Part shown: piece after piece, positions 18,670 to 42,941 of the stretch | Position numbering within the stretch: position 1 is the first letter of the stretch | Layout: every line of letters starts with the position of its first letter | Origin: Sulfurimonas sp. | Lineage (GTDB): Bacteria; Campylobacterota; Campylobacteria; Campylobacterales; Sulfurimonadaceae | Direction: 5' to 3' | NCBI RefSeq assembly: GCF_028714655.1 | Contig: NZ_JAQTLY010000004.1 | Coordinates: 62,001 to 126,000 of the forward strand | DNA: 64,000 nt | Position numbers and translations under genes: made by a program | The notes under the pieces: model-generated | Database searches by the model: none | What the model saw: only the letters and a program-made list of their open reading frames with translations | What the model was told of the DNA's origin: nothing

Positions 18670-18725
18670 CCATGAATTAAGTTCAGGGTGATGAGCAGTT
18701 CGTCATTCCAAGCTTGACTTGGAAT
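18670..18725. repeat. Palindromic dispersed repeat, copy 1
   Basis: Two adjacent inverted repeats: CCATGAA-TTAAG-TTCAGGG (one mismatch) and ATTCCAAG-CTTGA-CTTGGAAT. The same pair with near-identical arms occurs inside hypF at 34115-34213 in the same orientation. The arms resemble the RPE-type palindromic elements described in Rickettsia and other bacteria. This copy lies in the leader of the gene at 18786. Confidence 0.8.
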
Positions 18726-18772
18726 CTAGTTTAAAATTTAATCAGAAGATTCAATTTTAAACTAGATTTTTT
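18723..18772 (+). terminator. Strong intrinsic-terminator hairpin in a 5' leader
   Basis: AATCTAGTTTAAAATT (18723-18738) pairs perfectly with 18753-18768 over 16 bases, with a nested 4-base stem (AATC/GATT) in the loop and TTTT directly after. It lies just before the ribosome site of the gene at 18786, so it would stop transcription ahead of that gene. Its left arm shares the AAT at 18723-18725 with the second palindrome of the repeat. Confidence 0.7.
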
Positions 18773-24038: not shown

Positions 24039-24194
24039 AATAAAACCTTTTTAAATTATCTATTTTTTGTGATTATACATTACGGTACCTAAAATAGGAC
24101 TGATTAAGGGATTTAAAGTTGAAAAACGGTATAAAAGCTATTTTTTATGCTTAAAAATGTATAATGCAAAATATTTTTTTACGGATTATATATT

Positions 24195-25109: not shown

Positions 25110-25759
25110 TGGCACTTAGTTATTTTGATATCGTAGTTTCTATTATCATTCTTTTTTTGGGACTAAAAGGAATTATAAACGGCTTTTTCAAAGAGTTGTT
25201 TGGTCTTTTAGGTATTATCGGCGGTATTTTTATAGCTTCTAGAGTAGGCGAAAATGTAGGTAAACTTGTAAGCGACTCTATTTTTAAACTTCAAAGCAGC
25301 GCAGCCGTCAGTTTTACGGGCTTTTTGATTACACTTGCACTTTTTTGGCTCTTTATGGTCGGAGTAGGAGCGCTGTTTAAAAAACTTAGTTCCGTAAGCG
25401 GTCTCGGTGTTTTTGATAAAACTTTAGGTTTTATCTTTAGTGCAAGTAAATTTTTTCTTATCGCCTCTGTAATTGCGTATGCGGCTTATAATGTTAAAGC
25501 CGTAAAAACAAACATCGACCAAATGATGAAAAACAGTATCGTATTTCCTATGCTGGTTAAAATCGGAAGCGTTATTATGAAACTTGATGCCATTGAAATT
25601 TCCCAAGACCTCAATAAGAGTATAAATAAAAGTACGGAGATGATGCAAGAGAACATAAGTGAAACTCTGCAAAACTCAACACTAAAAACCTTAGAAGAGA
25701 CAAAAAAAATATTAAATGAAACCGTAGAGCAAAACACACCTAATAAAGAGAGTAGATAA
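25109..25759 (+). CDS. cvpA: CvpA-family membrane protein
   Basis: 216 residues with four hydrophobic helices in the first 160, starting YFDIVVSIIILFLGLKGIINGFFKELFGLLG, the CvpA signature, and a charged tail rich in Glu, Thr and Asn. In other bacteria CvpA is tied to colicin V export and envelope stress resistance. cvpA followed by fur, lysS and glyA matches the order in Campylobacter jejuni as I recall it, so the block is ancestral. fur starts one base after its stop. Confidence 0.85.
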   Translation: MALSYFDIVVSIIILFLGLKGIINGFFKELFGLLGIIGGIFIASRVGENVGKLVSDSIFKLQSSAAVSFTGFLITLALFWLFMVGVGALFKKLSSVSGLGVFDKTLGFIFSASKFFLIASVIAYAAYNVKAVKTNIDQMMKNSIVFPMLVKIGSVIMKLDAIEISQDLNKSINKSTEMMQENISETLQNSTLKTLEETKKILNETVEQNTPNKESR

Positions 25760-25760
25760 T

Positions 25761-26234
25761 ATGTCTGAAATTACAACCGATTTCAATTATAAAACAGTTG
25801 CATATAAACAATTACTTAATAACTTTAAAGAGCTGCTTAAAAAAAACAATCTAAAGTTTACAATTCAAAGAGAAGTAATACTTGAAACGCTCTACAATTC
25901 CGATGAACACTTAACGCCGGAATCTCTTCATAATCTCATACAGGAGAAATTTCCCGACTTAAAAACAGGAATTGCAACAGTATATAGAACGCTATCGCTC
26001 TTAGAAGAGTCGGATATGGTCACATCTCTCTCTTTCGGTGCGCAAGGAAAGAAGTATGAACTCGGTGCAAAACATCATCATGATCACTTTATCTGCACCG
26101 TATGCGGAAGCATAACCGAGTTTGTTGATGGACAGATAGAAGCGAGACAACATAAAATTGCAAAGGAGTTAGGTTTTAATATGCAAGATCACTCTATGCA
26201 AATTTACGGGATTTGCAAAAATTGCCAAAACTAG
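25761..26234 (+). CDS. fur: Ferric uptake regulator Fur
   Basis: 157 residues. The winged-helix part includes LKFTIQREVILETLYNSDEHLTPESL and GIATVYRTLSLLEE. The metal sites are in HHHDHFICTVCGSITEF and the C-terminal GICKNC pair, so both CxxC zinc sites are intact. It represses iron uptake when iron is plentiful. It has a longer N-terminus than E. coli Fur, as is usual in Campylobacterota. Its position before lysS supports Fur over the PerR paralogue. Confidence 0.92.
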   Translation: MSEITTDFNYKTVAYKQLLNNFKELLKKNNLKFTIQREVILETLYNSDEHLTPESLHNLIQEKFPDLKTGIATVYRTLSLLEESDMVTSLSFGAQGKKYELGAKHHHDHFICTVCGSITEFVDGQIEARQHKIAKELGFNMQDHSMQIYGICKNCQN

Positions 26235-26286
26235 CAAATGCGGTTACGAAGTAAAGTTTCCGTGAAAAAAAATAAAGGAAAAACTA

Positions 26287-27801
26287 TTGGTTTTTGATAA
26301 TAAATTTATACAACAAAGAATTGAAAAAGCAGAACTTCTAAGAAAAGAAGGGATTAATCCATATTCTAACAACTCTAAAAGAAATACGACAATTGAAAAA
26401 TTTTTAAATGTAAACTCCGATATTATTAATAAAGAGAACAAAAGAGACGAAAATCGCCACTATACTTTAAGCGGTCGTATAAAACTATTTAGAATTATGG
26501 GAAAAGCCAGTTTTATTCAAATCGAAGATGAGAGCGGAGTGCTTCAAGTCTATGTAGCAAGAGACCATCTTAAAGAAGACTTCTATAATGAGACTTTTAA
26601 AAAAAATATAGAAGTCGGAGATATCGTAGAAGTTAGCGGATACCCTTTTGTAACCGGTCAAGGCGAGTTATCTCTGCATGCGGATGAACTAAGACTTTTA
26701 ACAAAAGCTATATCACCGTTGCCTGAAAAATTTCACGGTATAACGGATAAAGAGACAAGATACAGAAAAAGATATCTCGACCTTATAATGAACGCGGATG
26801 TCCGTAAAACATTCAAAATTCGTTCAAAAGTCATCTCTCTGACTCGCCGTTTCTTTGAAGACAAAGGCTTTTTAGAAGTTGAAACTCCTATGATGCATCC
26901 GATAGCCGGCGGTGCAAACGCTAAACCGTTTATTACCCATCACAACGCGCTTGGCATCGACAGATACTTGCGAATCGCTCCTGAACTCTATCTAAAAAGA
27001 CTTATTGTCGGTGGTTTTGAAGCTGTTTTTGAGATAAACCGCAACTTTAGAAATGAGGGCATGGACGCTACTCACAACCCTGAGTTTACCTCTATAGAGT
27101 TCTACTGGGCATACAAAACATACAAAGATTTGATTGAAATCACAAAAGAGTATTTTAGATATCTATTTGACCACTTAAATCTGCCTACACAGCTTCCTTA
27201 CGGAGATATGGAAGTCGATTTTAGCCGCTTTAGCGAAGTACCTCTTATCGAGTCTCTCACTACTATCGGCGGAGTTCCGCAAGATATAGTCAACGACAAA
27301 GAGAAGATAGTTGCATTTTTAAAGAGCAAAAATATTCAGGTAAAAAACGGTCTAAATTTAGGTCAACTTCAAGGTGAACTATTTGACGAGTTTGTTGAAG
27401 AGAAACTTATAAATCCTACTTTTATTACAGAGTATCCGGTTGAAATCTCTCCGCTTGCAAGAAGAAGCGACAAAAATCCGGCTATTACAGAGAGATTTGA
27501 GCTTTTCATTGCAGGACGCGAAATTGCCAACGCTTTTAGCGAGTTGAATGACCCAATTGATCAGCTACAAAGATTTGAAGCTCAAGGTGCAGCTAAAGAG
27601 AACGGTGACGATGAAGCGCATGAAATGGATTTGGATTTTATAGAGGCACTTAGCTACGGCATGGCTCCGACAGCCGGTCAAGGTATAGGCATAGACAGAC
27701 TTGTAATGCTGCTCACAAACGAGCACTCAATCAGAGATGTTCTGCTCTTCCCTGCTATGAAACCACTACACAACGAAGAGAAAAACGAAGAAAACGAGTA
27801 G
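26287..27801 (+). CDS. lysS: Lysyl-tRNA synthetase, class II
   Basis: 504 residues: an N-terminal OB-fold anticodon domain ([24 protein letters not shown]) and a class II catalytic core with motif 2 ([23 protein letters not shown]) and motif 3 ([12 protein letters not shown]). It starts with TTG at 26287, with AAAGGAA about eight bases before it. The stop TAG forms part of a 14-base direct repeat that recurs ahead of glyA. Confidence 0.95.
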
Positions 27802-27896
27802 CTAAAGGAATGATTTCTTTTTACATCTTATCTGACACAAATGTGTCAAGCTTTAGTGCCAAAGCGGCTAGCGTAGCTAAAGGAATTACTTCCTTT
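27798..27896 (+). promoter_or_regulatory. lysS-glyA spacer with direct repeats and hairpins
   Basis: GTAGCTAAAGGAAT occurs exactly at 27798-27811 and 27873-27886, and similarity continues for about 20 bases after each. Each copy can form a stem; the second is AAAGGAA-TTAC-TTCCTTT at 27879-27896. Between them lies TGACACA-AA-TGTGTCA (27833-27848) and GCTTT...AAAGC (27850-27865). This could be a duplicated terminator or leader control of glyA. Confidence 0.45.
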
Positions 27897-27926
27897 TGCG
27901 TTTTAAATTAAATAAAAGGATAGAAA

Positions 27927-29174
27927 ATGGGTTTTTTACAAGATTACGATAAAGAAATTTTCGATTTATGCGAAAAAGAGCTGGAGAGACAAACCGACCA
28001 CTTAGAGATGATTGCATCTGAGAACTTTACGCTTCCGGCTGTTATGGAAGCAATGGGATCAGTTTTTACAAACAAGTATGCAGAGGGTTATCCGGGTAAG
28101 AGATACTACGGCGGTTGTGAATATGCAGACGGCGTTGAGCAGTTGGCGATTGACAGAGCGTGCAAGCTGTTTGGATGTAACTTTGCAAATGTTCAGCCTC
28201 ACTCAGGAAGCCAAGCAAATGCAGCAGTTTATGCGGCACTTTTAAATGCAGGCGACAAGCTTTTAGGAATGGATCTTAGCCACGGCGGTCACTTGACACA
28301 TGGTTCTAAGCCAAGCTTTTCAGGAAAAAACTACCACTCTTTTACTTACGGTGTAGAGCTTGACGGTCGTATGAACTATGACAAAATCATGGAAATCGCA
28401 AAAGCGGTACAGCCAAAAATTATCGTTTGCGGTGCTTCTGCTTACGCTAGAGAGATAGATTTTGCAAAATTCCGTGAGATTGCCGATGCGGTTGGAGCAA
28501 TTTTATTTGCCGACATTGCCCATGTTGCAGGTCTTGTTGCAGCGGGAGAGCATCCTAGTCCATTCCCTCATGCACATGTTGTTACAACTACAACACACAA
28601 AACTCTTGCAGGTCCAAGAGGCGGTATGATTATGACAAACGACGAGGAGATGGCAAAAAAACTTAACTCTGCCATCTTCCCGGGTATCCAAGGCGGGCCG
28701 CTTGTTCATGTTATCGCCGCAAAAGCAGTAGGTTTCAAGTACAACCTCTCTCCTGAGTGGAAAGAGTACGCTAAACAGGTAAAAGCAAATGCAAGAGTGT
28801 TAGGCGAAGTTCTTGTTAAAAGAGGCTATGAGCTTGTAAGCGGCGGAACAGATAACCATCTTATTCTTCTTTCTTTCATCAACCGTGATTTTTCAGGTAA
28901 AGATGCAGATATTGCTCTTGGCAATGCGGGCATTACCGTAAACAAAAACACTGTTCCCGGTGAGACGAGAAGCCCGTTTGTGACTTCAGGTATCCGTATC
29001 GGAAGCCCTGCGCTTACAAGCAGAGGTATGAAAGAAAAAGAGTTTGAATTTATTGCAAATAAAATTGCCGATGTTCTTGATGATATCAACAATACTGAGC
29101 TGCAAGCAAATATCAAAAAAGAGTTAAAAGCATTGGCTCAAAACTTTGTAATATACAATCAATCAACATATTAA
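27927..29174 (+). CDS. glyA: Serine hydroxymethyltransferase
   Basis: 415 residues. Typical motifs are [47 protein letters not shown], the PLP lysine box [18 protein letters not shown] and [10 protein letters not shown]. It interconverts serine and glycine and charges tetrahydrofolate with one-carbon units. AAAAGGATAG precedes the ATG. The DUF1882 gene follows ten bases later, the neighbour order seen in Campylobacter. Confidence 0.97.
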
Positions 29175-29184
29175 GGATAGATAA

Positions 29185-29727
29185 ATGACGGCGATGGATT
29201 TAAAACTTATAAAAATGCTAACGGATCACTACTGGATTAAAAAAGACGAAGTAGTCAATAAAATAGTTTTTAAGGGTCGTACATTTTATAATAAGTTTGA
29301 AAAAGTAAATTCAACACTATCGCAAAGCGTCATAAACCAGCATACAAAGGGTGAGATAACCGTAGCTCACTCTTTGATCAACAAACTCGGCAAAGTCGAA
29401 AATATAGTAATCGACTACAACGGAAGGGATCCTGAGCGTTTTTACCACAAGACTCAACTTCTTCTTCGTGAAGAGGGTTTTATAAACTTTACCGCTTTTA
29501 AAACGAAAACAGAGGGTCATCTTCATGTTTACATACACAAAGGGCATACTACTCTTCAAGAAGCCATACAACTCGGAAAAATGATAAGCATGAAACTAGC
29601 GGCAAAACAGCCTAAACAGTGGAGAATGTTTCCAAACGACGAAATGCCCGAAGAGTACAATATACTGACTCTTCCGTATGAAGTTTATTCTAAAGAGCGA
29701 GGTGCTTCTTGGTCAAAGCACATGTAG
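29185..29727 (+). CDS. DUF1882-family protein
   Basis: 180 residues, soluble, with the opening [21 protein letters not shown] and the tail [21 protein letters not shown] typical of DUF1882, a family found essentially only in Campylobacterota. Its function is unknown. It is always found close to glyA, which suggests shared expression more than a shared pathway. AAGGATAG lies before the ATG; an internal ATG three codons later is also possible. Confidence 0.8.
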
Positions 29728-29799
29728 TGCTTCTTAAAAAAAACATATGTAAATAAGTTTTTGGTATTATTATAAACTAAGAGTTAAGAAGGAGAAGTT

Positions 29800-30516
29800 A
29801 TGGAAGAAGAAAAAAATCAGCTTAATGATATTATTTTAAACAAAAACAGCTCATCTGCCGGAAATAAAAAAATTATTTTGGCAGTTGCGACTTTAGGTAT
29901 TATTTTAATTATTGTCGTGATGCTTATGAATTCACTTGCATCAAGCGGCACTAAAAATCTACCTCAAGCAGCGCTTCCTCCTGAGCCTCAAAAAGAGATT
30001 ATAGCCGGGAATAACGAACCTCTTTTTGAAGAAGTAAAAGTCGTTCAAGAAGGTGCACCTGAAAACGGTTCTCTTGATAAAATTGCACAAAAATTAAAAG
30101 AAGAGAGCATAAAAGAGAGTAGTAAAACAGCTGAAACAGTAAAAAAAGAGAGTGCTAAAGCGACAACGGTTGTTGAAGAACCTAAAAAAGCAGAACCTAA
30201 AAAAGCAGCAGTTAAAGAAGCGGTTGTACCGGCATTTCCTGCACCCAAGACAGCTCATACACCTACTGCCGCGGACGATTCTATAGGAAGCCATTACATT
30301 CAAGTAGGTTCTTTTGAAAAGAGCCAGCCTGACGAAAAGTTATTGAGTTCTATTTCAAAATTAGGCTATAAATATAAATTTCATGAAGTTAAAATAAATT
30401 CTAGAACGGTAAGTAAAGTTTTAGTAGGTCCGTTTTCTTCGCAAGAAGAAGCAAGAAAAGCATTGGTAAAAGTAAGAAGTTCTGTTGAACCGGGCGCTTT
30501 TTTAACAAAAATATAA
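29800..30516 (+). CDS. SPOR-domain single-pass membrane protein
   Basis: 238 residues. A cytoplasmic N-terminus of about 25 residues leads to one transmembrane helix (IILAVATLGIILIIVVMLM), a long Lys/Glu/Ala/Pro-rich periplasmic linker with repeated EPKKAEPKKA, and a C-terminal SPOR domain (HYIQVGSFEKSQPDEKLL ... KVLVGPFSSQEEARKAL). SPOR domains bind denuded septal peptidoglycan, so a cell-division role is likely. GGAGAAG precedes the ATG, and a terminator hairpin follows the stop. Confidence 0.88.
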   Translation: MEEEKNQLNDIILNKNSSSAGNKKIILAVATLGIILIIVVMLMNSLASSGTKNLPQAALPPEPQKEIIAGNNEPLFEEVKVVQEGAPENGSLDKIAQKLKEESIKESSKTAETVKKESAKATTVVEEPKKAEPKKAAVKEAVVPAFPAPKTAHTPTAADDSIGSHYIQVGSFEKSQPDEKLLSSISKLGYKYKFHEVKINSRTVSKVLVGPFSSQEEARKALVKVRSSVEPGAFLTKI

Positions 30517-30524
30517 TTAATTTA

Positions 30525-30553
30525 TGCTCCTTTTGCGGGAGCAACTCTTTTTT
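30525..30553 (+). terminator. Intrinsic terminator after the SPOR gene
   Basis: Stem TGCTCC/GGAGCA with a seven-base loop, followed by ACTC and six T. It overlaps the region just before the trpE ribosome site, so it may also act as a leader hairpin for trpE. Confidence 0.7.
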
Positions 30554-30567
30554 AACAAGGTGCCCAT

Positions 30568-31971
30568 TTGATTTACTCTAAACAATTTATACAAGACCAA
30601 CTAGCTCCTATCGCTGTTTATGCAAAACTTAAAACACTTTTTAAAGATGAAATTTCATATCTTTTTGAAAGCGCCGGAGGAAGCGAAGGAAACTACAGCT
30701 TTATCTGTATCGGTGCAAGAGAGAGAATTCAGTATATAGATAATCAGACACTTTATACCGATATAAACGGTGTTGTACATACGAAAGAAGAATCTCCGTT
30801 TATTTTTTTAAAAAACTACTATAAAAATATAGATACTTCAATATATAAAAAAGCTACAAGTGAACTTAAAGTGGGCTTCGTAGACGGCTTTATCGGTTAT
30901 ATCGGTTATGATATGGTCAAGGTTTTTGAGCCAAAACTTCATACGACTATGGATGGTTTAAAAGATGAGTTAAATACTCCCGATTTGGATCTTATACTTC
31001 CGAAAATCGTTTTGGTTTATTCTCATAAAAATTATCAATTAACTCTTATTTCAACACTTAAAGAGATGAGCGATAAGTTTGAAGCGGTCGAAGCCGAACT
31101 AAAAAACTCTTATGAATATGTTCATATGAAGAGAAACATAGGGGATGACAAAGGCAGCTTTGCATTCTCTAAAGAGCAGTTTTTTGAGATGGTAGACAAA
31201 TCAAAAGAGATGATAAGAAGCGGTGATGTTTTTCAAATCCTTATGACAAACCGTTTTACAAGAAAGATAAAAGTAGATCCGTTTAGTTTTTACAGAATAC
31301 TCCGAAGCAAAAACCCATCACCTTATATGTTTTTGATGGAGTATGAGGATTTCAATATCGTCGGCTCTTCACCTGAGGTTATGGTAAGAGTTACAAACGG
31401 AGAGCTTCTGCTTCGCCCCATAGCGGGAACAAGAAAAAGGGGTGCTACAAAACAGAGAGATATGGAGCTAGAAGCTGAACTGCTTCAAGACCCAAAAGAG
31501 CTCTCAGAACATCTTATGCTTATAGATCTTGGAAGAAACGATGTTAGCCGTGTAGCAAAAACTGGAAGCGTAAAAGTTGAAAATATGATGCACATTGAGA
31601 GATTTTCGCATGTTATGCACATCGTCTCAGATGTTACGGCTACGCTTGCGGACGATAAAGATATGTTTGACCTCTTTATGGCGACTTTTACGGCAGGAAC
31701 TATGACGGGTGCGCCAAAGATAAGAGCGATGGAGCTTATAGCAGAGTACGAGGGACTAAAGCGAGGTTTTTACAGCGGAAGCATAGGCTACTTTGGATTT
31801 GACGGCAATATGGACAGTGCTATCACCATAAGAACTGCTTTGGTAAAAGAGGACAAAGTTGTTCTTCAAGCGGGTGCAGGCGTTGTAGCCGACAGTCAAA
31901 ATGAGCTTGAGTATTTGGAAGTAAAAAACAAACTCGGCGCTCTTGTTGCTTCGCTGGAAGATTTAGACTAA
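30568..31971 (+). CDS. trpE: Anthranilate synthase component I
   Basis: 467 residues. The chorismate-binding C-terminal domain has DVFQILMTNRFTRK, NPSPYMFLMEYEDF, RPIAGTRKRG, LIDLGRNDVSRVAKTGSVKVE and GTMTGAPKIRAMELI. It uses glutamine-derived ammonia to turn chorismate into anthranilate; the amidotransferase partner (TrpG) is elsewhere. PabB is the alternative. TTG start at 30568 with AAGGTG before it. The aroE ATG directly abuts its TAA stop. In Campylobacter the SPOR gene is, as I recall, next to aroE, so trpE is an addition here. Confidence 0.87.
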   Translation: MIYSKQFIQDQLAPIAVYAKLKTLFKDEISYLFESAGGSEGNYSFICIGARERIQYIDNQTLYTDINGVVHTKEESPFIFLKNYYKNIDTSIYKKATSELKVGFVDGFIGYIGYDMVKVFEPKLHTTMDGLKDELNTPDLDLILPKIVLVYSHKNYQLTLISTLKEMSDKFEAVEAELKNSYEYVHMKRNIGDDKGSFAFSKEQFFEMVDKSKEMIRSGDVFQILMTNRFTRKIKVDPFSFYRILRSKNPSPYMFLMEYEDFNIVGSSPEVMVRVTNGELLLRPIAGTRKRGATKQRDMELEAELLQDPKELSEHLMLIDLGRNDVSRVAKTGSVKVENMMHIERFSHVMHIVSDVTATLADDKDMFDLFMATFTAGTMTGAPKIRAMELIAEYEGLKRGFYSGSIGYFGFDGNMDSAITIRTALVKEDKVVLQAGAGVVADSQNELEYLEVKNKLGALVASLEDLD

Positions 31972-32763
31972 ATGAAGTTATTTGCCGTATTTGGCGACCC
32001 TGTTGCGCACTCCCGCTCTCCTCTTATGCACAACAGCGTATTTAAAAACTTAAACTACAAAGCTTGCTACACGAGAATTCATCTTCAAGATGGTTCAAAA
32101 CTAAGAGAGACTTTTTTTGCTCTGGGTCTTAGCGGCGCAAATATTACCGTTCCTCATAAGGAAGCGGCATACATGGCTTGTGATGAAGTTCGCGGTTTTG
32201 CAAAAAAAGTGGGTGTTGTAAATACACTTGTAAATGAAAACGGCAGATTAATCGGCTACAACACCGATGCGGACGGTTTTATGTTCGCCATAAAAGAGTT
32301 CGGAGACATAAAAAATATTTTAGTTTTAGGTGCGGGCGGAACTGCAAAAGCGTTGTCTGCAAGATTTATGGAAGATGGCATAAAAGTAAGCGTTTTAAAC
32401 AGAAGCAAAGAGAGGCTTGCATACTTTAGAGAACTTGGTTGTGACTGCTTTATCTGGGAAGATTTTACAATCGGTAAGTATGATTTGGTTGTAAACACGA
32501 CAAGTGCGGGGCTTAAAGATGAAGAGCTGCCGGCTCCATTAAAGTTGATAGAAAAAATTTTAGATAACTCATCTTTTGCGGCTGATGCTATCTACGGCAA
32601 AGTAACACCGTTTTTAAAACTCTCCAAAGGCAAAAACATCATCTGCAAAGACGGTGCCGATATGCTTCTGGGTCAAGGTGTTTTGGCAAATGAACTCTTT
32701 GTAAACTATGAGTTAAAAACAAATGACATCAAACTTCATATGTCAAAAAGTTTTGAACTTTGA
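31972..32763 (+). CDS. aroE: Shikimate dehydrogenase
   Basis: 263 residues. Substrate-binding motifs FGDPVAHSRSPLMHN and GANITVPHKE (catalytic lysine) are followed by an NADP-binding glycine loop (VLGAGGTAKAL) and GADMLLGQG. It reduces 3-dehydroshikimate. The start codon abuts the trpE stop, so the two aromatic genes are coupled. The last 21 bases overlap the 3' end of convergent hypF, an unusually long tail-to-tail overlap that limits where a terminator can be. Confidence 0.94.
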   Translation: MKLFAVFGDPVAHSRSPLMHNSVFKNLNYKACYTRIHLQDGSKLRETFFALGLSGANITVPHKEAAYMACDEVRGFAKKVGVVNTLVNENGRLIGYNTDADGFMFAIKEFGDIKNILVLGAGGTAKALSARFMEDGIKVSVLNRSKERLAYFRELGCDCFIWEDFTIGKYDLVVNTTSAGLKDEELPAPLKLIEKILDNSSFAADAIYGKVTPFLKLSKGKNIICKDGADMLLGQGVLANELFVNYELKTNDIKLHMSKSFEL

Positions 32764-35091
32764 AGCAGCAGCAATCGCCTGTCCGTAAGCGATTGCCCCG
32801 TCATTACTGACAAATTTCTCAGGCAAAATAACATCGGGAATCTTTCTCATAATCAACCTTAAAAGCACTCTGTTTTGAAACACTCCTCCGCTTAGAACTA
32901 ATGGCAAATCGTACTTTTTGTGCATCCCATAAACAATCTCGACTATCGTGTTAAAAAATTTTGAAACCGCTACTCGCACATATTTTTCATCTAAAATCTG
33001 TTTTACTATTTGGCTAAAATCTATCTCGTTATCTTGCGTGCCAAACTCATAATACTCTGCAATATTTTCATCATATAGACTCTCTAAGAGCAGACCGCTC
33101 TCGCCCTCGTAACTGCAAACCTGAACTATATCCAAAAGAGATGCAACAGCATCAAAGAGTCGTCCGCAAGAGCTGCTAAGAGGTGCGTTTAGTCCGTTCC
33201 TCCATGCCCTAAGGAGTGTTTTTATCTCAGAGCTAGAAAAAGAGTTGATTGTCGGATTGTTAAGATTAAAAACTTCATTGCCGTATATCTCAAACAAGAA
33301 GCTAAGGGCAACACGCCTCGGCTCTTTTATAGCCTTCTCACCGCCGATAAGCTTAAAATATTTAAACTGCCCTATTCTTTCATACCCCTCCAAGTCACAT
33401 ACCAAAAACTCTCCGCCCCAAAGATTGCCGTCATCCCCATACCCTGTTCCGTCAAAACTCACACCCAAAACTTTTGTCGTTATACCATTTACACCCATAG
33501 TTGCCAAAATATGCGCATAGTGATGCTGAACTTGCAGTAACTCTATATCTTTGTTTTGCGCTTTTAACTCTTTGGCGTATTTGGTGGATTCATAGTTTGG
33601 ATGTTTGTCGCAAACAACTACATCGGGAGTAAAATCATAAATCCTCTTTAGCGTCTCCATATGTGATTTGAAGTGGTTTATACTGGACAAACTTCCCAAA
33701 TCCCCTATATATGGTGAGAGAATCACGCTATCTTCTACGGTTATGGCAACTGTGCTTTTCTGGTTTGCTCCAAGTGCCAAAATCTTTTTATCTGTTGTTT
33801 TTGGAAGTTTCAGATAAGTTGGCGCGTATCCTCTTGCATTTCTTAGCATAAATACTTTTTCATTTTCAACAAAGGCAACCGAGTCGTCGCAACTATTGAG
33901 TATCTCTCTGTTATGCTCCAAACAGTAGTCCCAAATCCCCAGTAGCTTTATAATATCATCATAAGCAGTACATAACGGCTCATCAGAGATATTTGCGCTT
34001 GTAGCGACTACGGGGCGGTTTAACTTTTGCAAGATAAGATGATGAAGAGGAGTATATGCCAAAAAAAGACCGATTTGATTGATATTTGGAGCGACAAAAT
34101 CACTCAGTAGATTTCTTGCAAAACTAGACCCTGAATCAAGTTCAGGGTGACTCAAACTCAAAAACTTTGTCATTCCAAACTTGCTTTGGAATCTAATTTT
34201 TAGGTTATGCAAGAAGTCCGGTGCCTTATTATATCTTTTTTTAAGCAGGACAATCGGTCGTCTGTTTGAACAAAACAGTTCCTCCTCTTTTGCGTTCATA
34301 TAAGCGATTTTTTTTGCAACATCAATATCTTTTACCATAATTCCAAAAGGTTTTGAGGGTCGTTTTTTTCTCTCTCGCAGAAGTTTCACGGCTTTATCAT
34401 TTGAGGCATCGCAAACCAGATGATAACCGCCTATTCCCTTTATGGCTACAATCTTGCCCTCACTTATAGCTTGTACGACTATATCTACGATGTTTTTGGA
34501 CTCTATTTTTGTACCGCTGTTGTCAAAAAGAGAGAGACTTGCGCCGCACTCGTGACACCCGATGGGCTGAGCGTGGTATCTCCTGTCTTTTGGATTTTCA
34601 TACTCTGCCGCGCACTTTTTGCACATAACAAACTCATCCATAGATGTGTTTTTTCTATCATAGGGAAGATTTTTTATGATGCTGTATCTCGGACCGCAAT
34701 TTGTGCATGTGATAAAGGGGTACTCAAATCTACGGTTGGTTTTATCGCTAAGTTCACTCTCGCACTCCGCGCACATTGCGATGTCTGAGGGTATATGGCT
34801 TGATAGAGTTTTGGTACTTTTGCTCATCTCTATGCTAAAGCCCTCAAACGATTTTGTTTTTTTTATTTGAGTGATTTTTATGGAGTCTATCTCGCAAAGG
34901 GGCGGTCTGCTTTGTCTGATTTTTTGGACAAATAGATTCATATCTTCTTGGCAGGCATCAAGCAGTATCGACACGCCGTAACCGTTGTTTGAAACTTGAC
35001 CATTTAGCCCCGATGAAACGGCAAGGTTGTAGATAAAAGGACGAAAACCAACCCCCTGCACCACTCCTCTTATCTCTATTGAATAAAACAT
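32743..35091 (-). CDS. hypF: Carbamoyltransferase HypF with an in-frame repeat insertion
   Basis: 782 residues. Domains in order: acylphosphatase (GVVQGVGFRPFIYNLA), two zinc fingers (CAECES...CTNCGPRYSI; CKKCAAEY...CHECG), YrdC-like (IVAIKGIGGYHLVCDA) and Kae1-like carbamoyltransferase (VQHHYAHILATMG; LVLSGGVFQNRVLL). It makes carbamoyl adenylate from carbamoyl phosphate and passes the group to HypE for the CN ligands of NiFe hydrogenase. Residues about 293-326 come from an inserted palindromic repeat and have no counterpart in usual HypF. The insert keeps the frame, so the gene may still work. Confidence 0.93.
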   Translation of the reverse strand: MFYSIEIRGVVQGVGFRPFIYNLAVSSGLNGQVSNNGYGVSILLDACQEDMNLFVQKIRQSRPPLCEIDSIKITQIKKTKSFEGFSIEMSKSTKTLSSHIPSDIAMCAECESELSDKTNRRFEYPFITCTNCGPRYSIIKNLPYDRKNTSMDEFVMCKKCAAEYENPKDRRYHAQPIGCHECGASLSLFDNSGTKIESKNIVDIVVQAISEGKIVAIKGIGGYHLVCDASNDKAVKLLRERKKRPSKPFGIMVKDIDVAKKIAYMNAKEEELFCSNRRPIVLLKKRYNKAPDFLHNLKIRFQSKFGMTKFLSLSHPELDSGSSFARNLLSDFVAPNINQIGLFLAYTPLHHLILQKLNRPVVATSANISDEPLCTAYDDIIKLLGIWDYCLEHNREILNSCDDSVAFVENEKVFMLRNARGYAPTYLKLPKTTDKKILALGANQKSTVAITVEDSVILSPYIGDLGSLSSINHFKSHMETLKRIYDFTPDVVVCDKHPNYESTKYAKELKAQNKDIELLQVQHHYAHILATMGVNGITTKVLGVSFDGTGYGDDGNLWGGEFLVCDLEGYERIGQFKYFKLIGGEKAIKEPRRVALSFLFEIYGNEVFNLNNPTINSFSSSEIKTLLRAWRNGLNAPLSSSCGRLFDAVASLLDIVQVCSYEGESGLLLESLYDENIAEYYEFGTQDNEIDFSQIVKQILDEKYVRVAVSKFFNTIVEIVYGMHKKYDLPLVLSGGVFQNRVLLRLIMRKIPDVILPEKFVSNDGAIAYGQAIAAASKFKTF
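34115..34213. repeat. Palindromic dispersed repeat inside hypF, copy 2
   Basis: Nested inverted repeats: outer CTTGCA/TGCAAG (34115, 34208), CCCTGAA-TCAAG-TTCAGGG (34129-34147) and ATTCCAAA-CTTGC-TTTGGAAT (34172-34192). Both inner palindromes match copy 1 at 18670 closely and in the same orientation. The span bounded by the outer arms is 99 bases, a multiple of three. On the minus strand it adds a peptide containing FGMTKF and HPELDSGSSF. Confidence 0.88.
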
Positions 35092-35100
35092 AATTTAAAA

Positions 35101-35240
35101 TCCTATCATAGACTGCCGCGCTGCGCTCGCAGTGACATATGTTCAGTCATTGCGTTTTGCCAGTGGCTAAATGGGCTAAATCCACTCACTAGCAGTGACA
35201 ACACCTCGTCATTGCGAGAAGCTTGCGACGAAGCAATCTC
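35101..35240. repeat. Mosaic of 'CEERSDEAI'-type repeats upstream of hypF
   Basis: The right part (TCATTGCGAGAAG..GCGACGAAGCAATCTC) matches the repeat at 22613. The left part (GACTGCCGCGCTGCGCTCGCAGTGAC) is a diverged relative, and a partial inverted repeat (CCAGTGG..CCACT) lies between. It fills most of the 224 bases between the hypA stop and the hypF start, and may separate hypF transcription from hypE-hypA. Confidence 0.75.
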
Positions 35241-35315
35241 TATGTGTTCTAAATGTTGCTTTCGTATGACAGAGTGCTTAACTGTATTTATAGTGACAAA
35301 AAAATCAAATCTCAT

Positions 35316-35657
35316 TTACTCCAGCTCCAAACTCATCAAATACATCTCTTCGCCGTCAAGAACCTTTAAGTCGAAACTCCCGCATTTTGGACATACAAAC
35401 TCATTTTTCTCAAGTTCCGACTCAGCCAGACAGCTGTTGCAGTACACTTTTACTTTTTGAAGATTTATAACCAACTCCGCATTATGACATATTGTGCCGA
35501 GCCTAAACATCTCGTAAGCTTCACGCAGAAGATGAGGCTCAACTCCGCTAAGTACGCCTATTTTAACGACGACTTTTGTTACTTTTTTTGCAGAGTTTTT
35601 TCTTGCATGTTCCTCGCAACTGTCAATAAGCGAGAGCACGATGCTATACTCATGCAT
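35316..35657 (-). CDS. hypA: Hydrogenase nickel-insertion protein HypA
   Basis: 113 residues. The N-terminal MHEYSIV contains the nickel-binding His2-Glu3 pair (here His-Glu, then Tyr), and the zinc site is formed by CNSC and CPKC about 60% along the chain. HypA delivers nickel to the hydrogenase large subunit and, in related bacteria, to urease. Its ATG follows directly on the hypE stop, so the two are coupled. hypB, its usual GTPase partner, is not in the window. Confidence 0.94.
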   Translation of the reverse strand: MHEYSIVLSLIDSCEEHARKNSAKKVTKVVVKIGVLSGVEPHLLREAYEMFRLGTICHNAELVINLQKVKVYCNSCLAESELEKNEFVCPKCGSFDLKVLDGEEMYLMSLELE

Positions 35658-36650
35658 TTAGCAAATCCTTGGGAGCAGTTCACCGCTTGGCATATCTAAA
35701 AACCTCTGCGTCTGCCACGCCGAATTTATAATGACTTTTTTTGGATGCAGATTTGTCACTTTGCCGATGATGGAAGCATTTTTATTAAATGTTTTCAAAA
35801 TCTGCTCTGCCCTCCCTGCTTCTTCTTTTTTAACTGCAAGCAAAAATGTTCCCTCATTTGCCAGAGACATAGCATCAAACCCTAAAAGCTCGCAAAGTCC
35901 CATAACTTCGTCACTTATAACGATTTTGCTCTCATCTGCCTCTATACAGATATTTGACTGTTTTGCCCACTCGTTTAACACCGCACTAACTCCGCCGCGC
36001 GTTGCATCTCTCATAGCCGTTATATCTATGCCGGCATCTATCAAACTCTTTACGGTTGGATAAAGAGAAGTGCAGTCGCTCATAAGAGAGCTGCTTAACT
36101 CAATCCCCTCGCGTGATGCAAAAATAGTCGCCCCATGACACCCGATATCACGACTAAGAAGTATGATATCATCCTCTGTTATGCTGTTTGAGCTTATACC
36201 GCTTTGCAAAATTTCGCCTATGCCAGTCGTGTTTATAAATATCTTATCAACACTTCCTTTGGGCACCACTTTTGTATCACCGCTCACTATTTGTGCGCCG
36301 TTTACCTCTAGCTCTTTTTGCATAGATGAAACTATGCGTTCAAGCTCATCTACGCTAAAACCCTCTTCGATTATCACGCTGCAAGTAAGATATTTCGGCT
36401 TCGCACCCATCATAGAGAGGTCGTTACAAGTTCCGCAAACGGCAAGTTTGCCTATATCCGCACCCGCAAAAAAAAGCGGAGTGACCGTAAAACTGTCGGT
36501 TGAAAATGCCAATCTTCCGCCCTCTATAACCGCCGCATCTTCGCTTTGCTCAAGTATGTCGTTTTTAAACGCTTTGTAAAAAACATCGCTTATCAGCTCG
36601 TTGTTCTCAGCTCCACCGTTCCCATGGGAAAGTTTTATTGTTTTAGTCAT
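35658..36650 (-). CDS. hypE: Carbamoyl dehydratase HypE
   Basis: 330 residues of the PurM-like ATP-binding fold: KLSHGNGGAENNELI, DAAVIEGGRLAFSTDSF, VSGDTKVVPKG and MRDATRGGVSAVLNEWA. The C-terminus is exactly PRIC, whose terminal cysteine takes the carbamoyl group and is dehydrated to thiocyanate. It starts 37 bases beyond the HepT-like gene end and is cut off from hypD by about 15.8 kb, unlike the usual hypC-D-E-A run. Confidence 0.95.
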   Translation of the reverse strand: MTKTIKLSHGNGGAENNELISDVFYKAFKNDILEQSEDAAVIEGGRLAFSTDSFTVTPLFFAGADIGKLAVCGTCNDLSMMGAKPKYLTCSVIIEEGFSVDELERIVSSMQKELEVNGAQIVSGDTKVVPKGSVDKIFINTTGIGEILQSGISSNSITEDDIILLSRDIGCHGATIFASREGIELSSSLMSDCTSLYPTVKSLIDAGIDITAMRDATRGGVSAVLNEWAKQSNICIEADESKIVISDEVMGLCELLGFDAMSLANEGTFLLAVKKEEAGRAEQILKTFNKNASIIGKVTNLHPKKVIINSAWQTQRFLDMPSGELLPRIC

Positions 36651-36687
36651 CTATTTTCTCCTTTAAAAAAACCAAAATCACACTTTT

Positions 36688-37107
36688 TTATAGTTTTAAA
36701 TATGCCAAATCTTCGTAATACTCACTCTTTAGAGCTTCTTCAATATAAATTTTATGATTTTCGATTTTTGGCAACATTTCAATAAGTAATTTTTTTAAAG
36801 TCGGCAAATAGTTTTGGATAATATCCCAAACCATACTCTCATCTATACCCCTGTAATTATGTGAGATTTTATCTCTCATAGCTGAAATACTTTTCCAACT
36901 GAGAGCATCAGAACTCTTAAGAGCATCATCAATCTTTTTGTTTTCTTCACCTATTGCAATGAGCAAATTAACGGTAGCATTAAAATTTAGCTGTTTATTT
37001 GCATGAAAGAACTCTTCTTCATCTTCAAAATCTTTAGAATAGTAAAAAATCTTCTCAATCGCTTCAAGAATAGTCAAGATGTAAGTTATATTTTTGCTGC
37101 TAAACAT
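36688..37107 (-). CDS. HepT-like HEPN toxin (pair 1)
   Basis: About 139 residues, all-helical. The RNase motif RX4HXY is present as RDKISHNY, the signature of HepT. In the HepT/MntA system HepT is an RNase that the nucleotidyltransferase silences by adding AMP to the tyrosine. The ATG at 37107 (MFSSKN) overlaps the partner's stop by eight bases (ATGTTTAG), the same overlap as in pair 2 at 47230. An upstream in-frame start exists inside the partner gene but is less likely. Confidence 0.82.
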   Translation of the reverse strand: MFSSKNITYILTILEAIEKIFYYSKDFEDEEEFFHANKQLNFNATVNLLIAIGEENKKIDDALKSSDALSWKSISAMRDKISHNYRGIDESMVWDIIQNYLPTLKKLLIEMLPKIENHKIYIEEALKSEYYEDLAYLKL

Positions 37108-37384
37108 AGATAAAATCCTCTTTTGCATCAAACTTTATCAAAGGATTTATCTTTTTAAAATTCATCAAATCAACCTTTGTATGCAACTTTTGAGTTAGCT
37201 CCTCTTCAAGTGTCAAATAGTTCTCAAAACTCATCTTACAACCCTCTTTTAGTATATAAGCTATATCAATATCGCTATCTTGTCGGTTCGCTTCTTTGGC
37301 AAAAGAGCCAAAAAGAACAAACTGAGCAATGTTAAAATCACTTTTTTTATCTTTTAAAATATTTAAAATTTCGTTTTTATTCAT
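37100..37384 (-). CDS. MntA-like nucleotidyltransferase antitoxin (pair 1)
   Basis: 94 residues with the minimal nucleotidyltransferase motif GSX10DXD: LFGSFAKEANRQDSDID, and a later VDLMNF that supplies the third acidic residue. MntA antitoxins adenylylate HepT. It is first in the two-gene unit, as is usual. It lies 54 bases past the end of the giant helicase gene on the same strand and may be on its transcript or have its own promoter. Confidence 0.83.
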   Translation of the reverse strand: MNKNEILNILKDKKSDFNIAQFVLFGSFAKEANRQDSDIDIAYILKEGCKMSFENYLTLEEELTQKLHTKVDLMNFKKINPLIKFDAKEDFIYV

Positions 37385-37438
37385 CTGCTGTATCCTTTAT
37401 GTTTTTTGTGTGTATTTATATATATTTTAAATACTATC

Positions 37439-40400
37439 TTATTCATCTGATAGTTCTAAAATATCAAAAATATCATTTAAATACTTCAACTGTTCTATAT
37501 GAACAATTCTTTCATCTCTATATCTTTTTGGAATTTTATTTCTAAATTCATCTATATCAATCGGCTTATACTTAACAAATTGCTCAATCATGATATCGGA
37601 TAATACACATCTTCTATCAATTTCAAAATCTTGAGATATAACTTCTTCTCTAAATTTAACTAACAGCTCTTTTATTTTTTCATCAGGTAAAAATTGTTGT
37701 AGATAACTAGGTTCAGAAAGTGTTTCTTCTTTATGATGATGTGTTTCTTTTTCTTTTTTTATCTCATCTATAATACTTTCTTCTAATTTTTCAACTGCTT
37801 TAACTTCTATTTCTTGAACTGGAACAAATTGAATTTTTTCATGATATTTAGCTTGAGCCTCTTTGATAACTTTAACAAGTTTTGATATTTCATTTTCTCT
37901 ATTTTTATACCAGTCAACAGACCAAATTCTATAAACTTGCCAACCAAGCATTTCTAAAACATCTTGTTTTAATCTATCTCTATCTCTCGCTGATTTTGAA
38001 GAATGATATGTTGCTCCATCATATTCAATTGCTAATACAAAATCATTAGGATTTTTAATTGATGTCACAGCTAAATCAATAAAATATCCAGCAACTCCCA
38101 CTTGAGGAACACATTTAAAACCACAATCTTTTAAAATGTTATAAACTGAGACTTCAAATTCAGAATCAAAATCTCTATTTATAATTTCTGAAAAGTCAGA
38201 AACAATTCCTTTTTCTAAATAGTTTAAAAAGGCTTTTAAGGCTCTAACACCTCTTGAACTATTTTCAGAAACAATAATATCGCTACTTCTCATTGAAGTA
38301 AATATTTCCATTTTTTGTTTAGAGCGAGTGAATAAAACATTTAGTCTTCTCCATCCCGTATCTGAATTTATAGGTCCAAATCTTTGATAAACCTTTCCTG
38401 TATCTTTATCTTTTCCAAAAGTAGTTGAAATTAAAATTACATCTCTTTCATCTCCTTGAAGATTCTCAAGGTTCTTAATAAAAAATGGTTCACTTGTTTT
38501 TGACCATTTAGAAATATAATTTGATATGGTTGGAGATTCCTTTTCTTTTTCATCAACCATATCTTGAATCAAATCTCTTTGTGTTGAGTTAAATGTTCCA
38601 ATTCCTATTGACCTGTCTGGATAATTTTTCATTTGTTTTTCTAAATGCTCAATAATTATTTTTGCTTCAACCTTATTCCTACTACTCTGATAAGCAGAGT
38701 TTTCTATATAGTGATATTTCACTCCCAACTCTGCACTGTTTTTACTTATAGGAGATGGAAAAACGATTAAATTCCCATCATAAAACTGTTGATTAGAAAA
38801 ATCAATCAAACTTTCATGCTGAGAACGATAATGCCATCTTAATTGTCTAATCGGTTTGTATAAATTTAAACAAATATCTAAAATTGATTCACTTTCACCT
38901 GCAACTGTATCTTCATCTTCTGTTTTATTCATTGAGTCAAAAAATGATGTCGGAGGTAATTGTTTTGGGTCTCCAACAATTACAATTTGATTTACACGCG
39001 CAATTGAGCCTAAAGCTTCTTCTGGTCTCAATTGCGAAGCTTCATCAACAATTAAAACATCAAATTCAACTTGATTGGGTGGTAAATATTGAGCAACAGA
39101 AAGTGGACTCATCATAAAACAAGGCTTCAATGCTTTTAAAGCACCTGATGCTCTTGAAACTAATTGTCTAATTGGGATATGTCTTTTTTTCTTATTTAAT
39201 TCATTTTCAAGTAAGCTAAATTCTGTTAAATCGCTTTTTCTATTTCCTCTATAACCTAAGGGGATTTCTTTTTGGCTTGTTAAATATGCAACTTTTTGTT
39301 TATTTAATTCAATAAGTTTTACATCCAATTCTTTAAAAGTTTTAAGAGATTGTTCGTGTGAAAGTCTATTAAATCTATTGAAAAGTTGATTTTTCCTAAA
39401 TATCTCTTTTAATAAAGTATGATAAAAATTATATGTGAAGTTTTTGATAATTTCATCAATTGGTAAAATCTCATCTTCAACACTCTCAACGATTAAGCTT
39501 AATCCTTGATTTTTTAAATCATGCACAAGTTGTCTATAATTAATCCATATTGATAAAGTTTGTTTATTATTATCCAATTTATCAAGCTTTTCTATACAAT
39601 CATTAATTTTAATATTTTCTCCAAAGAAAACATCATTAATTGTTCCTTTTGTTTCTATTTTTTGATAAATTTTATCAATATCATTTTGTGTATTGGATAT
39701 TTTTTTAAGTATATTGACTCTATCAATATCTTTTACTAGGTATCGTTTTAGATTATTGTCAAGACTAGAGTTCAAAATAAATGTAAACAAATCTTTTGTA
39801 TTAACAATTAATTCATAAGCCTCATCATTTAAATCAATATTTTGACTGTTACTACATTCATTCAACTTTTGAGACAAATCCATAAATAGTTCAAAGTTAA
39901 AGGTTAAATCATTGATGCCTATATCATATTTTTTTATTAAAATAAAAATATCTTCAATTTTCTTACTTGTAATTAAATTAAAAATTTCTCTACCAAAATC
40001 GGAATTTTTACTTACATTTGCGGATTTATAAATAGAGTTAGTTAAATTATCTAAATCATCATTGATGGTTTCTAATTTGGTTTTTAATTCAATAATATCA
40101 ATATCTTCTCTATCATAATAGATTTTTTTAATAAATTTTTTGTTGCAATCTTTTTCCAATGAATCTAAGGAACGATTATATAATTCTAAGTTTTCTATCA
40201 ATGAGTCTTTATATGATAAAAGTAAATGATAGTTGGTTATATCTCCAGATATTAATAGGTTCAAAATTTCTGTAATGTTAATATTTTGTTGAATAACTAA
40301 AACCCATTTGTGAAGCTTTTCAATTTCATCAATATTAGTTTTAGTGCCATTAAATAATTTGCCAAAATATTTAATATATTTTTCATTACTTTCAAATTTA

Positions 40401-42856
40401 CTCTTGAATGAAATATATTCTTTCATTTCTCTAGTAATATCATTCCATTTAGACTTATCATTTGGAAGAGATTTAATAAGAACAGATTCGATTGCATTCC
40501 TTGCTTGTTTATATTCTGTGGAAAAGAAATTAAAGAAAGAGTCTTTTTTATCTTTGATTATTTTTTCAAATAATTCAATTTTTTCAAGATTAATATCATC
40601 TACTTTTTGAGTTTGTGCGATTTTTGATAAATTTTTATTTAGACTATGATATTGATTTAAATCATTTTTCATTAAATCAAATTCTCTTGAAAAGGCTGTA
40701 TCTATATAATTGGAATTTATAAAAGAATATAGTATAGCATCAACATGTGACAGGTAATTTATCCCACTTGATAACTGCTGTATATATTGAATATTTCTGT
40801 TATTAGAAATATTGGTCTCATTTTTAATATGCTTCAAGATTTTATCTATCTTTGCTATATTTAGAATTGTTTTTTCAAATAGTTCAACATACATGTCAAA
40901 ACTATTCAAATTATCTACGATACTGTTGATACTATCTTTTATACTTGAATAGTTTTTAAGATATTCATCATAAACATTAGAAGTATCTGCAAGATTGATT
41001 AATATTTCTTTAGAATAATTCTTAGCTTTATCATTAAATGCTCTTACGAATGCATTTATTTTTTTGCTTTGAGTATATTCATTTGCAATATCTGCATTTA
41101 ATAATTTAAATTGCTCTTGAAGTTGAACAAAATCATTCTTTAATAACTCTAAAGTTTGAATAAAAGAGTCGATATCAACAAAATTTAAATTGTATGTATC
41201 CAAACCATTCCAATAAAATCTATTAAAATCATACTCTTTTAAAAACATTTTGAATTTTTTCAATTCTTCTATTGTGTGTGAAAGCTTATATGCACTATAT
41301 TCATTTGCATTAGGAACATCAAACTTCAAAAACTTAGATGCATTATTATATTTCTCAACTAACCAAAAAATATTGTACGCTTTTTTATCTATTGCTCCAT
41401 GAGATTCATGTAATAAATCAATATATTCTTTGAGATTTTTCTTTTTCTCTTCTATCTCTTGAATTATTCTATCATGAACTTCTGTATCATCGTATTTTGT
41501 TTCAACTCTTTTTTTTATACTCTCTAATATTTTTGTTTTTTGTGATTTATGGCTATGTAACTCTAAACAAAAGTCAGAAAGACCGATAGAATCGAGCCTT
41601 TTATGTACGACTTCTAAGGCGGCAAGTTTTTCTGAAACAAATAAAACAGATTTTCCCTCAGACAACAATACTGCTATCAAGTTTGAAATTGTTTGAGACT
41701 TTCCAGTTCCAGGAGGTCCCTCAATCACAATATTTTTTCCATTTAATACATCAACTATTGCACTATGTTGTGAAGAATCCGCATTCATTACAAGAGGAAT
41801 ATTATTTGCCAATGTGTCTAGATCTATATCGTACTCTTGTGCAAACATGGAAGTGTCAGAAATTTTTTTGCCTTCAAAAATATCTTTAAATATATCTTTT
41901 TCTGACAAAAGCGTGCCATTTTGCCAATTCTCTTCCTTTAAATCTTGATACATCAAAATTTTTCCAAACTTTAAAAAATCGATTGCAATTTCATGTTTTA
42001 ATGACCAATCTTTTTGATATTGGATAGCCTCTTGCACTTCTTTTAAATACTCATAATATGATAGTTCTTCTGTTAGTTCTGGCAATATAACCCCATACTC
42101 ATTATTGAGCTTTTCAGATAATGACCTATTTGTATCAATACCAGCTCCACTATATTCCAAAGTAAATTGATATCTATTAGCTCTTTTTTCTTTATTGAGA
42201 ACAATTGGAATACTGATTAATGGAGAATAATTGTATTGTTCAGAGTTTTTTGCTTCTTTCCATTTTAATAATCCGATAACAAAATAAAGCATATTTGAGC
42301 CTGTTTCTTCTATAATTGTTCTCGCATCTCTTTCAATAGATGTTAATATTTTTTCCATTTCATTTGGATAATGTAATGTTTGCAAGGAATCATCAATATA
42401 TTTTTCTTCAACATCTGAACTGCCTAAATCTATTTCTGGAAGTTCTTTTGAAATATTATAACCTAACTCTTTTGCCCTTTCTTCTGCTGTAAGTAATGCC
42501 TGTTTTTGAAGTTCTTTTTTTTCTGTTTCTAATTTTTCAATAATAAATTGTAATTCTTTTTTGGATAGTTCATCTTCATCTTTTGTAGCTTCTTGTAATT
42601 TTTCTTTATGCTTACTTATTTCATTGTCAATTTTTACTAAGTCCTCTTTTGAAATTGATGGTTCTAGTATAAACTTAAATTTAAATTTGCCTTCATCTTT
42701 TACTAAATAGTTATAAATAAATTCAGCAGATTCATCTATTATTTGAATATTTTTAGATTTACTAGGTCGTTTATAGTTTATAAGTTTGTTTCTTCTTGAT
42801 GTATCTATTAACTTATCTCTTAACTCCTCTATACCTTTAGTAAACAGATTATTCAT
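37439..42856 (-). CDS. DUF4011-type SF1 helicase with C-terminal nuclease
   Basis: About 1805 residues. The N-terminal part resembles DUF4011 (FTKGIEELRDKLIDTSRRNKLINY). Walker A GPPGTGKSQT lies at about 387, then some 800 helical residues. Motif II VDEASQLRPEEA lies at about 1275 with GDPKQLPPTSFF; UvrD-type motifs end at about 1515. A Vsr/MTES_1575-like nuclease follows at about 1575-1680 (YFIDLAV, LAIEYDGATYHSS, DVLEMLGWQVYRIW), and a DUF3320-like tail ends the protein. Such helicase-nuclease giants are frequent in defence islands. The ATG at 42856 has GAAGGGAA before it. No frameshift is visible. Confidence 0.85.
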   Translation of the reverse strand: MNNLFTKGIEELRDKLIDTSRRNKLINYKRPSKSKNIQIIDESAEFIYNYLVKDEGKFKFKFILEPSISKEDLVKIDNEISKHKEKLQEATKDEDELSKKELQFIIEKLETEKKELQKQALLTAEERAKELGYNISKELPEIDLGSSDVEEKYIDDSLQTLHYPNEMEKILTSIERDARTIIEETGSNMLYFVIGLLKWKEAKNSEQYNYSPLISIPIVLNKEKRANRYQFTLEYSGAGIDTNRSLSEKLNNEYGVILPELTEELSYYEYLKEVQEAIQYQKDWSLKHEIAIDFLKFGKILMYQDLKEENWQNGTLLSEKDIFKDIFEGKKISDTSMFAQEYDIDLDTLANNIPLVMNADSSQHSAIVDVLNGKNIVIEGPPGTGKSQTISNLIAVLLSEGKSVLFVSEKLAALEVVHKRLDSIGLSDFCLELHSHKSQKTKILESIKKRVETKYDDTEVHDRIIQEIEEKKKNLKEYIDLLHESHGAIDKKAYNIFWLVEKYNNASKFLKFDVPNANEYSAYKLSHTIEELKKFKMFLKEYDFNRFYWNGLDTYNLNFVDIDSFIQTLELLKNDFVQLQEQFKLLNADIANEYTQSKKINAFVRAFNDKAKNYSKEILINLADTSNVYDEYLKNYSSIKDSINSIVDNLNSFDMYVELFEKTILNIAKIDKILKHIKNETNISNNRNIQYIQQLSSGINYLSHVDAILYSFINSNYIDTAFSREFDLMKNDLNQYHSLNKNLSKIAQTQKVDDINLEKIELFEKIIKDKKDSFFNFFSTEYKQARNAIESVLIKSLPNDKSKWNDITREMKEYISFKSKFESNEKYIKYFGKLFNGTKTNIDEIEKLHKWVLVIQQNINITEILNLLISGDITNYHLLLSYKDSLIENLELYNRSLDSLEKDCNKKFIKKIYYDREDIDIIELKTKLETINDDLDNLTNSIYKSANVSKNSDFGREIFNLITSKKIEDIFILIKKYDIGINDLTFNFELFMDLSQKLNECSNSQNIDLNDEAYELIVNTKDLFTFILNSSLDNNLKRYLVKDIDRVNILKKISNTQNDIDKIYQKIETKGTINDVFFGENIKINDCIEKLDKLDNNKQTLSIWINYRQLVHDLKNQGLSLIVESVEDEILPIDEIIKNFTYNFYHTLLKEIFRKNQLFNRFNRLSHEQSLKTFKELDVKLIELNKQKVAYLTSQKEIPLGYRGNRKSDLTEFSLLENELNKKKRHIPIRQLVSRASGALKALKPCFMMSPLSVAQYLPPNQVEFDVLIVDEASQLRPEEALGSIARVNQIVIVGDPKQLPPTSFFDSMNKTEDEDTVAGESESILDICLNLYKPIRQLRWHYRSQHESLIDFSNQQFYDGNLIVFPSPISKNSAELGVKYHYIENSAYQSSRNKVEAKIIIEHLEKQMKNYPDRSIGIGTFNSTQRDLIQDMVDEKEKESPTISNYISKWSKTSEPFFIKNLENLQGDERDVILISTTFGKDKDTGKVYQRFGPINSDTGWRRLNVLFTRSKQKMEIFTSMRSSDIIVSENSSRGVRALKAFLNYLEKGIVSDFSEIINRDFDSEFEVSVYNILKDCGFKCVPQVGVAGYFIDLAVTSIKNPNDFVLAIEYDGATYHSSKSARDRDRLKQDVLEMLGWQVYRIWSVDWYKNRENEISKLVKVIKEAQAKYHEKIQFVPVQEIEVKAVEKLEESIIDEIKKEKETHHHKEETLSEPSYLQQFLPDEKIKELLVKFREEVISQDFEIDRRCVLSDIMIEQFVKYKPIDIDEFRNKIPKRYRDERIVHIEQLKYLNDIFDILELSDE

Positions 42857-42941
42857 ATAGCTTCCCTTCTTAAACACAATTTTTTATTAAAACTAATATT
42901 ATTTTTTCATATGGAATATTGTAGCAAATTCTCATATTGTT

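Follow-up and report, generated by a model that had tools for sequence, protein, structure and literature searches.

A palindromic insert in the hypF gene of a Sulfurimonas species, very probably an IS5-type miniature transposon with a pair of CGTC-type REP hairpins

How does a palindromic repeat come to lie in frame inside the gene of a conserved enzyme? In-frame palindromes have been reported as a striking peculiarity of Rickettsia, with the manner of their movement left open (PMC2229807, PMC3733652). The RPEs of these bacteria, palindromes of about 100-150 bp, occur in frame in genes for conserved proteins, according to Ogata et al. (2000, 2002) as relayed in PMC10969869 and PMC2229807. The same question is raised by the hypF gene of a free-living Sulfurimonas sp., which lies in the window analysed here, a stretch of 64,000 nucleotides (assembly GCF_028714655.1, contig NZ_JAQTLY010000004.1, positions 62,001 to 126,000). 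The original prediction held that nested inverted repeats stand within the hypF frame and that they entered the gene as RPEs do. The repeats are present, and the likeness to RPEs holds for behaviour, a palindrome having entered the gene of a conserved enzyme in frame. Our data indicate that the segment is very probably a non-autonomous miniature transposon (MITE), moved in IS5 fashion into a 3-bp target of hypF.

The ends of the unit were set by aligning 36 genomic copies and by locating the outer inverted repeats (Table 1). A span of 99 bases, adding about 33 residues, had been proposed; the insert is indeed in frame, but the 99 bases are its core. Since the unit measures 111 bp and brings a 3-bp duplication, the gain is 114 bp and 38 residues. 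Read in the sense of hypF, the element adds GLY/PRO-DFLHNLKIRFQSKFGMTKFLSLSHPELDSGSSFARN together with neighbouring residues, the 38 including the duplicated 3 bp.

Table 1. Positions in the window of hypF, the insert and its parts, and complete insertion sequences (IS) of sibling species
Feature	Positions	Strand	Basis or details
hypF, interrupted in frame	32743..35091	-	782 aa; ORF and TIGR00143 match
Putative MITE, 111 bp	34109..34219	-	ends from TIR and family alignment; absent from relatives
Left target-site duplication AGT	34106..34108	.	flank comparison
Right target-site duplication GGT (AGT, one base changed)	34220..34222	.	putative, from the family's 3-bp rule
TIR left arm AGATTTCTTGCAAAAC	34109..34124	+	TIR location, family alignment, pairing
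TIR right arm, minus-strand reading GGACTTCTTGCATAAC	34204..34219	-	TIR location, family alignment, pairing
Inner hairpin 1, CGTC-type REP	34128..34152	-	stem ACCCTGAA/TTCAGGGT, tag GTC inward
Inner hairpin 2, CGTC-type REP	34168..34195	+	TGTC tag, stem ATTCCAAA/TTTGGAAT, tail CTA
Intergenic REP pair without TIRs	18670..18728	+	like the hypF inner hairpins
Complete IS L154, 906 bp			flanks ATT/ATT; sibling species
Complete IS L198, 907 bp			flanks AGT/AGT; sibling species
Complete IS L199, 896 bp			flanks ATT/ATT; both ends AGACTTCTTGCATAACC; sibling species

The hypF segment is an insertion absent from relatives. HypF was matched in 44 of the 60 relatives searched, and not one of these matches spanned the segment. 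When the protein was aligned with 29 relatives, a check that had been suggested for the prediction, it proved about 38 residues longer at the insert than the others, none of which has more than a few residues there; all 29 show the gap, and the insert is also absent from solved HypF proteins. The closest of the empty sites, in the hypF of Sulfurimonas sp. STA_12 (L225), is ungapped and exactly 114 bp shorter, its length being that of the interrupted sequence minus the element and one target copy.

The interrupted protein matches the TIGR00143 profile with 787 bits, and all HypF domains were found. The insertion had been placed between the YrdC-like domain and later conserved boxes; instead, the profiles show this domain itself to be split. 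It appears (Pfam PF01300) as two stretches, the best of which covers HypF residues 208-295 and profile positions 2-93 of 178, and the TsaC profile match resumes at HypF residue 330, profile position 92. Profiles and alignment together locate the 38 residues in a length-variable loop, at a site that maps between residues 292 and 294 of the solved HypF 3vth. Compared with L225, hypF has a dN/dS of 0.17, indicative of purifying selection, and its evolutionary rate is no higher than in relatives, both values also covering the time before the insertion. To judge from sequence, the 38 added residues are presumably present in the mature protein, and HypF with the insert probably still works. A structure prediction from a three-row alignment (mean pLDDT 36) was left unused.

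The hypF copy is one of many. Searching the genome with the 99 bases, as had also been suggested, returned 48 matches, mostly outside genes, the second copy at E=1.6e-31 and thus far beyond chance; the peptide encoded by the element gave 130. Both sets, merged within 150 bp, amount to about 81 distinct places with full or partial copies, a figure that stands for search matches (peptide matches down to about E=1e-3) and not for a curated census. Copies were studied from the matches and their surrounding stretches rather than from a full census, and at the loci scanned nearly all of them fall outside ORFs of more than 100 aa. The elements are multicopy, typically 111-137 bp long and without a transposase gene. 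Of 135 Sulfurimonas genomes, 36 contain relatives of the element, and in several of them these are full-length, with 78-96% identity. The plasmid collection yielded no copy, Rfam no family match within 17500-37500, and the open-access literature no report of Sulfurimonas MITEs.

The terminal inverted repeats (TIRs) of the family read AGACTTCTTGCATAACC. Over 22 aligned rows, 90% of the cells in the 16-bp arms are paired, with four pairs changed on both sides. Exact 3-bp duplications flank 29 of 38 TIR-bounded sites (34 full elements and four solo 28-bp palindromes), against 12.6 expected from shuffled right flanks (p<=5e-5), and flank matches of at least 4 bp were no more frequent than chance. 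Among the 29 identical targets, 26 are AAT or ATT, and AAA, ACT and CTT occur once each. The 3-bp flanks were likewise identical in all eight members of a group made up of seven relatives and L097, an own-genome copy counted once in the 38-site test. Given the TIRs, the 3-bp duplications and the IS with the same ends described below, a MITE mobilised in trans is the best reading, against which stand the substitution in one of the two hypF target copies and, as set out below, the REP pairs without TIRs and the lack of a matching transposase in the assembly.

The TIRs enclose two CGTC-type REP hairpins in head-to-head order, their CGTC tags pointing inward. The hairpins have the CGTC/TGTC tag, the stem of 8-9 bp beginning with AT and the loop of 4-5 nt of this class, except that the tail is mostly CTA and not CCA. 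When 22 rows, the consensus included, are aligned, pairing holds for 94.8% of the cells in the three helices. Ten pairs were changed on both sides, compared with 3.1 in shuffles; none of 500 shuffles reached ten, a count that is not a probability because the rows are related copies. Sliding the partners likewise abolished the pairing signal. Hairpin 1 of the hypF copy itself shows one such compensated change, from U-A to C-G. As predicted, the two inner palindromes recur outside genes at 18670, in a copy devoid of outer TIRs. Since this locus and two others (L024, L068) hold REP pairs without TIRs, such pairs can spread by another route, and together with solo TIR palindromes they reveal the REP pair and the TIR frame as separable modules. 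These solo palindromes, consisting of both MITE ends and a 4-bp loop (L082:965-992, L083:1186-1213, L084:1027-1054 and L095:1050-1077), could be minimal MITEs or deletion remnants; L082 at least has matching AAT flanks. A further CGTC-type palindrome, GTCATTGCGAGAAGCTTGCGACGAAGCAATCTC, occupies 35208-35240 in the gap between hypA and hypF.

A search of the genus for DDE transposases uncovered, in sibling species, autonomous IS of 896-907 bp with MITE-type TIRs and 3-bp duplications. The ends of L199 and of others among these IS are identical to those of the MITE over 17 bp. In L199, HTH_Tnp_4 (PF13613) and DDE_Tnp_4 (PF13359) fall in separate, overlapping frames; both frames match NF033581 (IS5), at 58.8 and 109.4 bits, each below the cut-off of 140 because the transposase is split over the two frames. 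We take these IS with a DDE_Tnp_4 transposase (L154, L198, L199) to belong to the ISL2-like subgroup of the IS5 family. A second IS group, with ends AGACTTCTCCTAAAAC, likewise makes 3-bp duplications, and among the plasmid relatives, which are annotated as IS5 family, one in Sulfurospirillum ends in AGACATCTTGCAAAACTC and one in Spiroplasma in AGACTTCTTGC. The assembly itself (26 contigs, 96% complete) yielded no IS5-family transposase of this kind, and we therefore infer the mover from sibling species: an IS5-family transposase probably moved the hypF copy in trans. Two other partners were considered and rejected, namely IS1182/DUF772-type transposases, whose ends (GAGACTGTGAAA and similar) do not match those of the MITE, and a RAYT, the genome's Y1_Tnp loci (L170, L185, L191) having no REP or paired TIR nearby.

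The insertion very probably proceeded as follows. An IS5-family DDE transposase would act in trans on TIRs of 16-19 bp, with the two head-to-head CGTC-type REP hairpins riding inside them. The 111-bp copy would enter an ANT-type target of 3 bp, which reads ACT in the sense of hypF and is thereby duplicated. The landing spot is the length-variable loop of the YrdC-like domain, and the landing phase coincides with the sole stop-free frame of the family consensus. Because 111 plus 3 is a multiple of three and the phase matches, hypF stayed open, with 38 residues gained by HypF.

Could the segment have arrived otherwise? A RAYT-type tyrosine (HUH) transposase might have moved the REP hairpins into hypF, with the outer arms being incidental, and the genome does contain three Y1_Tnp matches as well as REP pairs that lack outer arms. 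The copies, however, bear TIRs and 3-bp duplications, a pattern that HUH transposition is not known to produce, and both of their outer arms correspond to the ends of an IS. As CGTC REPs are moreover without a known RAYT (PMC3733652), we consider this route improbable. Recombination or template switching between repeats, with no transposition at all, would draw on rearrangements that do happen, as the tandem and partial copies at L061, L064 and L076 attest; yet the unit in hypF is complete and precisely bounded, its 3-bp flanks match, and no donor sequence adjoins it, all of which renders such an origin very improbable.

Nor does an error of assembly account well for the locus. A repeat wrongly stitched into hypF would be a natural suspicion in a genome of 26 contigs, where repeats favour misassembly, but the frame is intact, the copy carries variants of its own (the compensated C-G pair and the mutated duplication), and two more genes are in the same situation with matching empty sites, so that an artefact is extremely improbable. 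The idea that HypF of this lineage has long possessed the segment as a conserved part has no point in its favour and is refuted by the absence of the segment from all 29 relatives and the solved proteins and by the presence of the same sequence at dozens of other places; we give it practically no credence.

Turning back to the MITE, its family consensus is open in only one of six frames, and all three cases within genes share that frame and orientation; in-gene copies are therefore survivors of selection. One of the two besides hypF is a membrane glycosyltransferase-like gene (L069), where the element lies in frame and adds about 51 aa; the homologue in another genome (G004) reads GAACTT where L069 reads GAGCT-element-ACTT, giving a clean ancestral ACT target. 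The other is an LpxL-like gene (L076) with a rearranged, truncated copy, whose homologue in G111 is uninterrupted. Full-length copies most often measure 112 bp, and just 8 of the 34 have a length divisible by three; the survivors must therefore represent a filtered minority. Of about 81 places, three are interior to a gene, as would be expected after the purging of disruptive insertions, and nothing here points to an adaptive role. We also considered and discarded selection for an open frame within the element, of which there is no sign, the hypF frame being open in only 5 of 29 oriented copies. At L076:1758-1900 the REP arm has grown into tandem repeats of 18 bp (GMTKKF) that keep the frame, possibly a length-variable site.

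Several known systems invite comparison. With RPEs the element shares the in-frame palindrome in conserved genes (hypF, L069, L076), a comparison by behaviour and not by sequence. Two RPE families correspond to CGTC REPs (PMC3733652), whereas the target duplication of RPEs is given as unknown and their transposase as unassigned (PMC2229807); the Sulfurimonas element, in a free-living campylobacterote, displays TIRs as well as 3-bp duplications and has an IS family to match. It thus appears to work like an RPE but seems best described as an IS5-type MITE with a CGTC-REP pair, and is not filed as an RPE. CGTC REPs have been reported as head-to-head dimers with no transposase, most of them, though not all, fitting the CCA tail (Di Nocera et al. 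2013, PMC3733652). Our hairpins agree with these dimers in the CGTC/TGTC tag, the 8-bp stem starting with AT, the 5-nt loop and the head-to-head order, and differ in having CTA for CCA and in being enclosed in IS5-type TIRs with a target duplication. The IS5 elements L154, L198 and L199 share the TIR and the 3-bp duplications with the MITE; unlike it they are autonomous, about 900 bp long and unrelated in their interior, and none was found in this genome.

MITE-ORF fusions are known in Coxiella, Neisseria and enterobacteria, and in-frame MITE insertions are not confined to Rickettsia. The Coxiella families QMITE1 and QMITE2, with about 50 copies, overlap ORFs or extend them, in some cases in frame, and QMITE2 contains a GTAG-type REP (PMC5896051). 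Compared with the Sulfurimonas MITE, the QMITEs are longer, have that other type of REP and other duplications, and affect mostly hypothetical genes or gene ends. New here are CGTC-type REPs joined to IS5-type ends, with 3-bp duplications, a candidate transposase family and a free-living host among the Campylobacterota. That CGTC REP pairs spread inside IS5-type TIRs, and that the same route underlies protein-coding palindromes generally, including the RPEs of Rickettsia, is a tentative generalisation and rather unlikely. A free-living host with visible ends, target duplication and a matching transposase family, and with three host genes that have uninterrupted homologues, makes both the mechanism of movement and the effect of the extra peptide on the enzyme directly testable in the laboratory.

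At three loci (L002, L007, L063) elements stand directly before genes and extend the frame upstream in the HPELDSGS frame. The genes are presumably AmmeMemoRadiSam-like, metK-like and aminopeptidase-like, respectively, names that we take from reading the sequences. Their start codons probably lie downstream of the elements, and annotation is likely to misplace the starts of such genes as a result. Beside hypE, finally, positions 36688-44027 hold a defence-like stretch with a HepT-like and nucleotidyltransferase pair, a 1812-aa DUF4011/SF1 helicase/MTES_1575 nuclease and a YhcG PDDEXK nuclease.
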